From Candidatus Saccharimonadota bacterium (lineage in GTDB: Bacteria; Patescibacteriota; Saccharimonadia; Saccharimonadales; SZUA-47): DNA of 60,093 nucleotides. Shown in pieces: positions 1,034-4,662 of the stretch. Every line of letters starts with the position of its first letter. Positions within the stretch are counted from its first letter, which is position 1. The notes beneath the pieces are model-generated. The model was not told the DNA's origin and searched no databases. It was given only the letters and a program-made list of their open reading frames with translations. The position numbers and the translations under genes were made by a program. The DNA lies in the NCBI GenBank assembly GCA_020428465.1, contig JAGQMY010000035.1, positions 1 to 60,093 of the forward strand, written 5' to 3'.

Positions 1034-3604
1034 ATGTTTAAAGCAGCCTTAAAAAGTTTACGCACCCACAAACTAAGAATGGCCTTAACGGGCTTCGCTG
1101 TGGTGTTGGGTGTTAGTTTCGTAGCAGGAACTTATATGTTCACCGATAGTATCAGTTCAACATTTGACGGACTATTCGGAAATGTTTACGCCGGAATTGA
1201 TGTAACAGTACGACCAGCCAAAGGAGAACTGGGTCAGGTATCCACATCATTTGATGAGTCAGTCCTTCAAACGGTTAAACAAACTGAGGGAGTAGGAGTA
1301 GCAGAGCCCGGTGTTGGTGGCTTAGCTCAACCTTTAGATAAAAATGGTAAACCAGTAGGTGGTCAAGGTGCGCCGAGCTTAGGATTTTCTTGGACAAAAG
1401 ACGAATCAATGAACTCATTAAAAATCCATGACGGCGATGGTAGAGCTCCAGAAAACTCAGGAGAAATGGTAGTCGATAAAGCCACTGCTGATAAATACGA
1501 GTTTAAAATTGGCGACAAAATAACAGTTTTATTTGACTGTAGCATTCCTCAAGCAGATTTTACACTTGTCGGTATAGCGACATTCGGTTCGGCGAATAGC
1601 CTAGCTGGCGCTAATTTATCTGCATTTAATTTGGCTGATGCTCAGAAATATTTCGATATGATCGGAAAATATTCAAGTATTGATATAAAAGCGTCTGACG
1701 GCTATAACAAAGACAAGTTACTAGCAAACATAAAAGCAGCCCTACCTGAAGGGTTAGAGGCCGTAACCGGTGAGCAACAAACCAACGAACAGCTTGATGA
1801 AATTAATCAGAACCTAGGCTTTCTAAACACTGCCCTGCTTGTTTTCGCGGGAATAGCAATATTTGTAGGCTCGTTTATTATTCAAAACACTTTCAGAATT
1901 GTGGTAACCCAAAGAACGCGCGAATTAGCATTACTCCGAGCATTGGGTGCGACGAGAAATCAGGTCATGAGATTAGTCTTGTATGAGGCATTCTTTGTAG
2001 GCTTAGTTGCAGGTGCTTTGGGTATATTTGCTGGAGCAGGAATAGCCTACGGCGTAAGAGGTATGATGAACGCGCTTGGCTTTAGCTTACCTGGAGGTCC
2101 GCTAGAAATTGCTCCGAGAACTGTAATTATATCCTTGATCGTTGGTTCGGGTGTTACCGTTGTATCTTCCTTGCTACCAGCAATTAAGGCATCACGACTC
2201 GCTCCTGTAGCGGCACTTCGTGATAATCAGGCGCCTACGAAGCGAAAATCATTAGTAACCAGAGGGTTAATTGGCGCGGTACTAATATTAATCGGTGGCG
2301 GTGCTATTGTTTATGGTCTAGGTGAAAACAGGTCTAATCCACTTCCAATTGTCGGATTTGGTGTAGCAACACAGTTTATAGGAGTTTCCATGACTGCGCC
2401 ACTTCTAGCTTTGCCTATTTCAAGATTTTTTGGAATTATCCTCGCAAAACTTCGTGGAATTCCTGCAAAACTAGCTTACCGAAATGCCATTCGCACACCC
2501 CGTAGAACAGCTTCAACAGCGTCTGCATTAATGATCGGCGTTTCCTTAATCGCGATGATAGCAATAATCGCTTCAACTTTCAGAGTAGCAATAGACAAAA
2601 TAGTTAATGATAGCTTCGCAGCCGATATTATCGTGACGTCCAATAACGTTGGTGAAGGTGGGCCTAACACAGGTACATTCAGCGAGGAAGCCTATAACCG
2701 CATAAAAGGACTCAAAGAGCTTAAAGACGTATCTGCTCTACGTTATGCATTCACAGGTTATAAAGTCGACGGAGCCAGCTCATCATTTGTTCTGGCCGGT
2801 ATTAATCCAACTAATTTCGATAGCACAGTAGCGAGACTTAAACCAAGTGAAGGTACGTTTGAAAGACTCAAAATCGGTACAGTCGCTGTAAGGCAACAGG
2901 AATTAGATAAACGTGGATTACAGATCGGAGATACTGTTGATATTGAATACGCCGAAACCGGACTGAAAACATATCTTATTGTAGGAAGCTTCGAAGATGC
3001 TTTTGACTCAGACTACCTAATAAGTGCTGATGATTATATGCAGAATTTCAGCAATCATAATCTTGTAATGATAGCCGCTACCTACAATGATTCATACTCT
3101 GCCGAAACAATTAAGCAAGCTGTAGAGGGAGCCTTATCTGAATTTCCCCAGTTAAGTGTTCAAGATCAGTCTGATTTGAAACGAACAGCTAATGAACAGG
3201 TTGACCAATTAATAGCCCTACTCTGGAGTTTACTTGCTATGGCAGTCATTATCGCGGTATTCGGCATTACTAACACATTGATGCTATCAATTGCGGAGAG
3301 AACACGGGAAATTGGCATGCTACGAGCAATCGGTATGACCAGAAAACAAGTACGCCGAATGATAAGAATGGAGGCGATAATAATTGCTCTATTTGGTGCA
3401 CTCCTTGGCATTTCAGTCGGATCGTTCTTTGCCTGGGTCATTCTACGTGCATTAGAATCAGAAGGAATAAGTGGTTATGTGTTCCCTGTTGTGCAAATGA
3501 TAATTTACTTTATTTTTGCCGTTATTGCTGGTATTTTCGCAGCTTTACTTCCAGCCCGTAAAGCAGCGCGCATGGATGTCTTAAAAGCAATCTATACAGA
3601 GTAA
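1034..3604 (+). CDS. FtsX-family ABC permease with two FtsX domains
   Basis: An 856-residue membrane protein partnering the preceding ATPase. A first membrane helix (about 16-36) leads into an extracytoplasmic MacB_PCD-like domain. An FtsX core follows, holding the coupling segment TQRTRELALLRALGATR, then central membrane helices, a second extracytoplasmic domain (about 515-725), and a second FtsX core with AERTREIGMLRAIGMTR near the C-terminus. The duplicated layout fits permeases that act without a second subunit. GGAG about 10 bases before the ATG gives translation within the operon. Typical roles are export of peptides, toxins or lipoproteins; the substrate cannot be read from sequence. 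Confidence 0.9.
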   Translation: MFKAALKSLRTHKLRMALTGFAVVLGVSFVAGTYMFTDSISSTFDGLFGNVYAGIDVTVRPAKGELGQVSTSFDESVLQTVKQTEGVGVAEPGVGGLAQPLDKNGKPVGGQGAPSLGFSWTKDESMNSLKIHDGDGRAPENSGEMVVDKATADKYEFKIGDKITVLFDCSIPQADFTLVGIATFGSANSLAGANLSAFNLADAQKYFDMIGKYSSIDIKASDGYNKDKLLANIKAALPEGLEAVTGEQQTNEQLDEINQNLGFLNTALLVFAGIAIFVGSFIIQNTFRIVVTQRTRELALLRALGATRNQVMRLVLYEAFFVGLVAGALGIFAGAGIAYGVRGMMNALGFSLPGGPLEIAPRTVIISLIVGSGVTVVSSLLPAIKASRLAPVAALRDNQAPTKRKSLVTRGLIGAVLILIGGGAIVYGLGENRSNPLPIVGFGVATQFIGVSMTAPLLALPISRFFGIILAKLRGIPAKLAYRNAIRTPRRTASTASALMIGVSLIAMIAIIASTFRVAIDKIVNDSFAADIIVTSNNVGEGGPNTGTFSEEAYNRIKGLKELKDVSALRYAFTGYKVDGASSSFVLAGINPTNFDSTVARLKPSEGTFERLKIGTVAVRQQELDKRGLQIGDTVDIEYAETGLKTYLIVGSFEDAFDSDYLISADDYMQNFSNHNLVMIAATYNDSYSAETIKQAVEGALSEFPQLSVQDQSDLKRTANEQVDQLIALLWSLLAMAVIIAVFGITNTLMLSIAERTREIGMLRAIGMTRKQVRRMIRMEAIIIALFGALLGISVGSFFAWVILRALESEGISGYVFPVVQMIIYFIFAVIAGIFAALLPARKAARMDVLKAIYTE

Positions 3605-3783
3605 AATTCAAACAAGTAGGTTTCCAGTCGCTGTATTCGGATGAAACCCGTCCGCCTACTGGCGGAGGACTTGCACACGTTTCGCGGGCCCACAACTTTC
3701 ATGTGTCAAACAAGTTTGACCCTGAAAGATTCTCTTGCGAAATGCCACAGGCATTTCTCACCTTCACGCGTGAAGCTTCAAAT
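3605..3783 (-). ncRNA. Hairpin-rich structured RNA candidate
   Basis: Between the permease stop and the tRNA terminator lies a noncoding stretch dense with perfect hairpins: TCCGCC/GGCGGA (3651-3666), GTCAAAC/GTTTGAC (3705-3720), nested in CTTTCA/TGAAAG, GAAATGCC/GGCATTTC (3739-3757) and the 14-base palindrome CTTCACGCGTGAAG (3762-3775). On the minus strand GGTTTC/GAAACC and CAAGT/ACTTG could close a multi-branched 3' domain. TGGTATAGT (3798-3790) is a plausible extended -10, giving an RNA of about 180 nt. It does not match the conserved cores of RNase P, tmRNA, SRP or 6S RNA as far as I can judge. A plus-strand open frame here (3641-3844) looks like a shadow. Confidence 0.5.
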
Positions 3784-3800
3784 CTATCAACTATACCATT

Positions 3801-3825
3801 TTAAAAACCCAACGAGATGTTGGGT
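3801..3825 (-). terminator. Terminator of the tRNA-Leu transcript
   Basis: Perfect 7-bp stem ACCCAAC/GTTGGGT (3807-3813, 3819-3825) with loop GAGAT. On the minus strand it is followed by TTTTTAA. It starts 8 bases after the CCA of the outer tRNA-Leu. Confidence 0.8.
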
Positions 3826-3832
3826 CTTTAAA

Positions 3833-4109
3833 TGGTGCGGATGAAAGGACTTGAACCTTCACGTCTTGCGACACTAGCTCCTAAGTTTACCCCGTAGTAA
3901 CACTTTGTGTTTACTATCAGGGGCTAACGACAAGTTGCAAATTTTGGTGCGCGAGAGAGGACTTGAACCTCCACGAGTTTCCTCACTAGCTCCTAAGGCT
4001 AGCGTGTCTACCAATTCCACCACTCGCGCATCCAGAATTTACTACTTGTTAAATGTCTACTCATTCTTCGTGTAAAGCGTCGAATGACGGGCAATTCCAC
4101 CACATCCGC
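3833..4109 (-). tRNA. Interrupted tRNA-Leu(UAG) surrounding another tRNA
   Basis: The two ends form a tRNA-Leu: acceptor GCGGATG (4109-4103) pairs 7/7 with CATCCGC (3843-3837), followed by A-CCA (3836-3833). The 3' half has loop CTTAGGA (anticodon TAG), stem GCTAG, a long variable arm (GTC GCAA GAC) and a T-arm with TTCAAGT. The 5' half runs to the D-loop (GTGGTGGAATTG). Between them lie three inserts: 4061-4091 (31 nt), 3930-4053 (124 nt, containing an intact tRNA-Leu) and 3886-3922 (37 nt). Each has an internal or enclosing inverted repeat. The heptamers GTAGACA (4060-4054) and CGTTAGC (3929-3923) supply the missing D-arm and anticodon-stem strands. Removing the inserts gives exactly 85 nt, the length of the inner tRNA. 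It may be a pseudogene or an intron-containing gene. Confidence 0.6.
3945..4029 (-). tRNA. tRNA-Leu(UAG), intact
   Basis: An 85-nt class II tRNA with encoded CCA. Acceptor GCGCGAG (4029-4023) pairs with CTCGCGC, followed by A-CCA ending at 3945. The D-arm holds AATTGGTAGAC, the anticodon stem is CTAGC/GCTAG around loop CTTAGGA (anticodon TAG), the variable arm is GAG-GAAA-CTC, and the T-loop is TTCAAGT. It decodes CUN leucine codons. It is flanked by a 14-base near-perfect inverted repeat (3930-3943 and 4036-4049), so in the precursor RNA it would sit at the end of a helix inside the outer tRNA-Leu. Confidence 0.95.
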
Positions 4110-4126
4110 GAAAGAATTGCTTCGTT

Positions 4127-4132
4127 ATTATA
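4127..4132 (-). promoter_or_regulatory. -10 box of the tRNA-Leu transcript
   Basis: TATAAT on the minus strand, about 17 bases upstream of the outer tRNA 5' end at 4109, placing the transcript start about 11 bases before it. No good -35 is visible. The box lies just past the rsmD stop codon. Confidence 0.5.
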
Positions 4133-4134
4133 AC

Positions 4135-4662
4135 TTAAATTAACTTCTTATAAAAGACTAGTTTTCCTCCCGCATATGACCTTTCTTTTAAAGTTTCGAG
4201 ATTGTCGAATTTGAAGTCTGCAATTTCCGGCATCGAGAACACTAAAATTCCGCTTTTCTTTAACACGTCTATACATTTATAAATTTGCGTACTCACAATG
4301 GCGTCATAAGGCGGATCCAGTATTACGATGTCAAAGCTAGCATCAGCTATATTTTCTAAATATGAGGCTATGTTAGCTCGATGAATTTCCAAATTTTTAT
4401 CTATTATACTTTCGGCATTTTTCTTTAATACCGTAAAAGCATCAAAATCTACTTCAACAGCTACAACTTTCCTAGCACCGCGACTTAAGGCTTCAATACC
4501 GACAGCGCCTGTACCAGCATACGCATCCAAAACGTCTAAACCCTCTATATCACCGAGTGCATTAAATATCGCTCCACGCATTTTCTCACTCATCGGATGA
4601 GTTTTATGTCCGTGCGGTTCCGATAGAATTCGTCCTTTATATTTCCCGCTAATTACTCTCAT
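4135..4662 (-). CDS. rsmD: 16S rRNA (guanine966-N2)-methyltransferase RsmD
   Basis: A 175-residue SAM-dependent methyltransferase that modifies G966 of 16S rRNA during small-subunit assembly. It begins with the family signature MRVISGKYKGR. The SAM-binding loop is DAYAGTGAVGIEALSRGA (about 46-63), and DPPY (116-119) is the catalytic (D/N)PPY motif of N-methyltransferases acting on exocyclic amines. Length matches the family. Its ATG overlaps the stop of the upstream gene by four bases, so the two are translationally coupled. The tRNA-Leu locus lies immediately downstream. Confidence 0.93.
   Translation of the reverse strand: MRVISGKYKGRILSEPHGHKTHPMSEKMRGAIFNALGDIEGLDVLDAYAGTGAVGIEALSRGARKVVAVEVDFDAFTVLKKNAESIIDKNLEIHRANIASYLENIADASFDIVILDPPYDAIVSTQIYKCIDVLKKSGILVFSMPEIADFKFDNLETLKERSYAGGKLVFYKKLI

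Follow-up and report, generated by a model that had tools for sequence, protein, structure and literature searches.

Transfer RNA genes are essential, mostly single-copy in reduced genomes such as these and considered to be stable, and tyrosine integrases use sites in the anticodon loop. The natural parallel to the locus reported here is the genomic island that a tyrosine integrase places in a tRNA or tmRNA gene (Islander, PMC4383910), in which a tRNA gene is likewise split, its function is restored by the inserted DNA and a displaced fragment of the old gene is left behind. Group I introns of bacterial tRNA genes also resemble the locus, as they interrupt the anticodon loop, and the archaeal bulge-helix-bulge introns and split or permuted tRNAs (PMC3978253; summarised by Kanai, PMC10714607) share with it several short helix-forming inserts per tRNA and exact rejoining of exons. 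Finally, the REP palindromes moved by RAYT (Y1) transposases are, like the inserts described below, short imperfect palindromes that insert with little change to the target.

The window, by which we mean the whole stretch of DNA analysed (60,093 nucleotides), is the entire first contig of a Candidatus Saccharimonadota bacterium genome (G000; 996,900 bases, 98.6% complete). On its minus strand a complete tRNA-Leu(UAG) lies inside a second, interrupted tRNA-Leu(UAG) that spans positions 3833 to 4109 (Table 1), and this nested arrangement, first proposed in an earlier note made from the sequence alone, was confirmed. ARAGORN and the Rfam covariance model RF00005 (58.3 bits) both called a single complete tRNA-Leu(TAG) of 85 nt, with ARAGORN reporting only the inner tRNA at the nest and the pieces of the outer gene lying around it. 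In this draft assembly tRNA genes were also seen at or near the ends of contigs C18, C23, C58 and C82, so tRNA-linked repeats may break the assembly and hide some isoacceptors.

Table 1. Positions of the nested tRNA-Leu(UAG) genes, their inserts and flanking signals in the window.
Feature	Position	Strand	Basis
Promoter-like site TTTATA-16-TATAAT upstream of the outer gene, which would serve both tRNAs	4127..4154	-	One found against 1.3 expected by chance
Outer exon A, GCGGATGTGGTGGAATTG: acceptor 5' strand GCGGATG and D-arm to G18	4092..4109	-	Sequence, spliced alignment
Insert 1, 31-nt hairpin between outer G18 and G19	4061..4091	-	Fold -6.3 kcal/mol; site matches the insert site of the nested Val of this genome
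Outer exon B, GTAGACA, end of D-arm	4054..4060	-	Shuffle test, spliced alignment
Insert 2, 124 nt, holding the inner tRNA framed by ACAAGTAGTAAATT / AATTTGCAACTTGT	3930..4053	-	p = 0.003 against shuffles, fold
Inner complete tRNA-Leu(UAG), acceptor GCGCGAG, CCA encoded; no other complete tRNA-Leu(UAG) was detected in this genome	3945..4029	-	ARAGORN, RF00005
Outer exon C, CGTTAGC, anticodon-stem 5' strand	3923..3929	-	Shuffle test, spliced alignment
Insert 3, 37 nt, imperfect palindrome CCC..GGGG and TAAA tail, 5' side of anticodon loop	3886..3922	-	Fold -14.2 kcal/mol
Outer exon D (53 nt), CTTAGGAGCTAG...CATCCGCACCA: anticodon loop, 3' anticodon strand, variable arm, T-arm, CATCCGC-A-CCA	3833..3885	-	Sequence, spliced alignment
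Hairpin immediately 3' of the outer CCA, terminator-like by eye; 14-nt arms, 93% complementary; unscored as a terminator in the scan	3800..3832	-	

Spliced alignment bore out the reading that removal of three inserts from the outer gene (31, 124 and 37 nt, separating four pieces) leaves a tRNA of 85 nt with all tRNA stems, in which the acceptor stem paired at 7 of 7 positions and the anticodon (with one U.G), variable and T stems were also paired. The broken stems of a decayed pseudogene were not seen in this outer copy, which keeps every stem despite its three inserts, although they were found elsewhere in the class; where it differs from its relatives it does so by paired changes, as would be expected of a functional tRNA. 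The earlier note had allowed that the two 7-nt middle exons could be chance matches; they supplied the 14 missing nucleotides with one mismatch, a fit equalled in no more than 15 of 5000 shuffles of the flanks that preserved dinucleotides (about 0.003). Each insert folded as a hairpin, with the middle one at -50.4 kcal/mol. The helix around the inner tRNA was also found, but as an imperfect leader-trailer helix rather than as the 14-base helix originally described. Inner and outer copies have different acceptors (GCGCGAG and GCGGATG) but have in common an anticodon-stem C-G pair that is absent from plain relatives in the family.

Compared with islands, the locus likewise combines a complete tRNA with displaced pieces of an old gene, here on both sides of it. 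Islands, however, have an integrase gene, whereas the window insert is 124 nt with a tRNA only; more generally the inserts of the nests are about 0.1-0.2 kb, carry a whole tRNA and not a 3' fragment, keep both old halves around them and have no block of identity by which an attachment site would be clearly marked. The sequence common to the inner and outer Leu, sought as an att core, consisted of CTTAGGAGCTAGTG and GGTGGAATTG, both of which are conserved tRNA sequence. The DNA flanking the inner tRNA was not a copy of the flank of the outer gene, and no mobile gene, integrase or clear attachment site tied to the inserts was found.

The inserts also differ from group I introns, being 31-124 nt long, lying in the D-loop and at position 25/26 as well as in the anticodon loop, having no Rfam intron score and, in one case, containing a tRNA. 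Neither group I nor group II introns were matched in window positions 3500-4300 at E up to 10, nor did the inserts from 12 nested loci match any Rfam intron at E up to 1, whereas the true intron of locus L063 was detected; group I or II introns and other known RNAs were accordingly rejected as candidates for the inserts. A true example of a group I intron is present in the same genome, where a tRNA with a CAU anticodon (L351; G000:C81:24300-26800, minus strand) has its anticodon split by an intron of about 600 nt (RF00028, 59 bits), the opposite strand of which carries an HNH-endonuclease-like ORF.

The archaeal systems differ in that the nests are bacterial, the outer tRNA is redundant, the insert is an intact tRNA of the same isoacceptor, and G000 has neither EndA nor RtcB. 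A search for RNA-processing enzymes, as the earlier note had proposed, detected no EndA (PF01974) in 12 of 12 genomes including G000, with archaeal controls positive, and no RtcB (PF01139) in G000 and six others, while five of the 12 genomes had RtcB. Archaeal-type splicing of the outer gene was rejected on these grounds and, with no Rfam intron match either, a spliced outer tRNA would need unknown machinery. Genes for Y1 transposases were present in 10 of the 12 genomes checked, and most of the 14 RAYT-like Y1 genes inspected (L326-L340) had palindromes of the CAAGGACCGTCCTTG kind near both ends. By eye these flanking palindromes belong to a different sequence family from the inserts, and a REP/RAYT origin of the inserts was rejected.

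Plain, uninterrupted tRNA-Leu(UAG) genes were found directly downstream of rsmD in a genome of the same genus (G001) and in G005-G008, so the outer gene of the window was interrupted later. The earlier note had imagined relatives with an uninterrupted tRNA alongside decayed stems in the window; the former were found, and the latter were not. Both acceptor types stand alone within the family, six genomes having GCGGATG and two (G003 and G006) having GCGCGAG. This indicates that an intact gene was split later and that relatives have tRNAs of the inner type too.

The same genome holds a second nest, located by a search for tRNA 3' ends (41 matches, against 0 for the control pattern). Here the D-loop of one tRNA-Val(GAC), whose acceptor is GGGCGAT, contains a second tRNA-Val(GAC) whose acceptor is GGATCCG (G000:C58:22317-22501), and removal of the insert (the inner tRNA with about 15 nt on each side) restores an outer tRNA with all stems, the D-loop boundaries being ambiguous by a few bases. 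A plain tRNA-Val(GAC) of the outer type occurs in G004-G008, and G010 has only the inner acceptor type, seemingly at the same locus.

Nesting was found to recur well beyond this genome, with some 30 additional nests of tRNA genes (Ile, Thr, Met, Phe, Val, Arg, Ala and Leu) in Saccharimonadales-type and many other Patescibacteria genomes, a count of scan matches together with loci read by eye which, like all our nest counts, is a lower bound because the fixed scan patterns favour TAGCTCA-type D-arms and short flanks. Within the order these include Ile and Arg nests in G088, Ile in G098, Thr in G113 and G101, Met in G075 and G085, and tRNA-Leu(CAA) in G093, G193 and G280. In the Leu(CAA) nests the framing helix is long, starts right after CCA and stops 3-4 nt before the 5' end of the tRNA (p 0.000-0.006). 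The G093 nest has the layout seen in the window, its inner tRNA having entered behind the D-arm and its anticodon loop containing a second insert. In G280 (L349 / L354, G280:C2 about 155100) the nest has three levels, with an intact inner tRNA, an interrupted middle one and an outermost 5' half; an inverted repeat also frames the outermost pair, where the helix is weaker (p = 0.03).

When 85k genomes were scanned by pattern, at least 115 loci were obtained, and in at least 26 of them the inner tRNA was followed by an orphan 3' tRNA end. Among the matches listed, the acceptor of this orphan end formed 6 or 7 of the 7 possible pairs with the orphan 5' piece in 20 of the 26 loci, compared with 7 of 7 in 2.2% and 6 of 7 in 7.2% (together 9.4%) when pieces were mixed between loci. 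The good cases among the matches listed were by name mostly Patescibacteria (Moran-, Levy-, Nomura-, Berkel-, Wolfe-, Woese-, Woyke-, Azam-, Falkow-, Nealson- and Kazan-type, and Saccharimonadia). Outside Patescibacteria, a Psychromonas match resembles tandem tRNAs, a Lentisphaerae locus (L242) is ambiguous, yet is counted among the 20 scored loci, and an Endomicrobiia locus (L302) looks like a real nest. The exon and insert layout recurs at similar tRNA positions in unrelated loci, which speaks against the middle exons of the window being chance matches and makes that very unlikely.

In all nests that could be read, inner and outer tRNAs were of the same amino-acid type, and where the outer anticodon could be made out it equalled the inner one, an Ala locus (L238) being the one probable exception. 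The inner tRNA was usually framed by inverted repeats, the helix being without significance in some nests. The acceptor and T stems differed strongly between most inner and outer copies (for example GCGCGAG vs GCGGATG, and GGATCCG vs GGGCGAT).

Outer copies ranged from exact to decayed. By spliced alignment and by eye, exact outers with one to three inserts were found at L255, L267, L270 and L314, in the Ile nest of G088 and in the Leu and Val nests of G000, with L215 exact except for one doubtful pair; several unrelated ones (L255, L270, G088 Ile) are exact with two or three inserts, and at L255 the outer and inner tRNAs agree at every one of 74 nt (74/74) despite three. At the broken end of the series lie G113 Thr, G098 Ile, G088 Arg, L220, L269, L302, L347 and L349: about 9-11 nt of the D-arm and anticodon arm are missing from the outers of G113, L256, L302, L347 and L349, and stems are broken in those of G088 Arg and G098 Ile. 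Such a series, with an inner tRNA that always covers the function, is the pattern that would be expected of displaced relics.

The three window inserts had no match as dispersed repeats in G000 or G001 at E <= 0.001. In family f37, one D-loop insert is a dispersed 73-nt repeat, an imperfect palindrome (CCCCAGCACCAAAATCTTGA..ATCTGATTGCAGACTACT..GGTTTTGGTGCGGGGCAGG) that occurs in up to 14 copies per genome, mostly outside tRNA genes, in intergenic DNA, tRNA D-loops and the 3' ends of genes (L175-L204, in G046, G050, G075, G082, G088, G098, G107, G110, G113 and others). The idea that the ATCTGATTGCAGACT insert represents a tRNA-specific intron family was rejected, as it lies mostly outside tRNA genes, including at the 3' ends of alaS. 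At L191 (G113) and L175 (G050) an alaS-like end, named from C-terminal residues read by eye, is followed by the 73-nt repeat and then by a second set of the final codons (RIKAVLE-stop) that is coded differently, as though DNA had arrived with a substitute for the gene end it displaced. A general process is thereby suggested, in which DNA may enter an essential gene, supply a diverged working part and leave the old part as a relic. Many tRNAs (L057, L059, L067, L070, L087) also have a second copy of their own 3' end downstream, a feature widespread in the order and seen in the window at 3641-3790 (minus strand); in several of these displaced ends the T-loop is interrupted by a dispersed repeat of about 95 nt (GGT|GAGAAATGCC...GTGTGC|AAGTCC).

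On balance we consider it probable that a palindrome-framed replacement tRNA entered the old gene and took over its function, with the outer copy left as a redundant relic. A short DNA carrying an intact tRNA of the same isoacceptor within an inverted-repeat frame would have entered an older tRNA-Leu(UAG) next to rsmD, and further small palindromic pieces would have entered the same outer gene. Both tRNAs would presumably lie on a shared precursor made from the promoter of the outer gene, in which the leader-trailer helix would let the inner tRNA fold independently, to be freed by ordinary RNase P and 3' processing as the working tRNA-Leu(UAG). We infer this processing route, the greater age of the outer copy relative to the inner and the loss of outer function, and the outer copy, being redundant, is most likely non-functional. 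We propose that an insertion into an essential single-copy tRNA gene can be survived only if it brings the same isoacceptor, which would account for the rule seen across the nests, and that outer exons are still exact because few or no bases are lost or duplicated when the pieces insert and because the nest is young. Counting against this reading, the outer Leu is strikingly intact, with paired differences from its relatives, unrelated outers are exact too, the search tied no mobile gene to the inserts, and the framing helix does not reach significance in all nests. The suggestion in the earlier note that hairpin insertions had killed one copy comes closest to it, and the f37 insert that is a 73-nt repeat agrees with that suggestion, which nevertheless misses the same-isoacceptor replacement and its recurrence.

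Exact outers would be hard to explain if old, and it is this that keeps splicing in consideration. The outer gene might then be a functional multi-intron tRNA, with palindromic inserts that are short bacterial introns of a new kind, excised by some unknown nuclease and ligase, and with the inner tRNA resident in one of them, which we regard as rather unlikely. The geometry that the earlier note had read in this way holds: exons rejoin exactly in the window Leu, G088 Ile, L255, L267, L270 and L314, insert hairpins bring them together at insertion sites that recur, and the outer and inner stems differ by paired changes. The splicing part of the claim fared less well, as none of the 12 genomes had EndA, G000 and six others had no RtcB, the inserts had no known ribozyme, parts of the tRNA are lost from many outers and the f37 D-loop insert is a dispersed repeat mostly outside tRNA genes; moreover, the outer is always made redundant by the inner, which a working spliced tRNA would not need. 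The broader version, in which Patescibacteria have new, very short palindromic tRNA introns and an unknown bacterial splicing system, some introns hold complete tRNAs, and both the outer Leu and the outer Val of G000 are live spliced tRNAs, appears unlikely. Local origin, by tandem duplication of the tRNA followed by template switching at palindromes that nests the copies with no mobile cassette, would explain the shared isoacceptor directly and would suit both the 74-nt identity at L255 and the anticodon-stem change that inner and outer have in common in the window and that plain family relatives do not show, such that local duplication or gene conversion may have contributed. As the whole explanation it seems to us improbable, given the strongly different acceptor and T stems of most pairs, the inner types that stand alone within the family (Val in G010, Leu in G003 and G006) and the neighbouring DNA of the inner tRNA, which is unlike the flank of the outer gene. 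That the nest is an assembly artefact or chimeric contig, as the earlier note had allowed, is very unlikely: tRNA genes are often at contig ends in the draft of G000, but the same architecture recurs at comparable places in the tRNA in assemblies made independently by different projects, some of which have very large contigs.

No description of tRNA-in-tRNA nests in Patescibacteria was found in the open-access literature, subscription papers and preprints being outside the scope of the search. Annotation tools can miss such nests and, if the outer tRNAs are in fact spliced, bacteria would have a system for splicing tRNAs that has yet to be discovered. The recurrent arrangement of a gene within its own predecessor looks like an undescribed route of replacement of essential tRNA genes, and nested replacement by the same isoacceptor, with old copies that range from exact to decayed and in up to three levels, would be a new route of essential-gene turnover.
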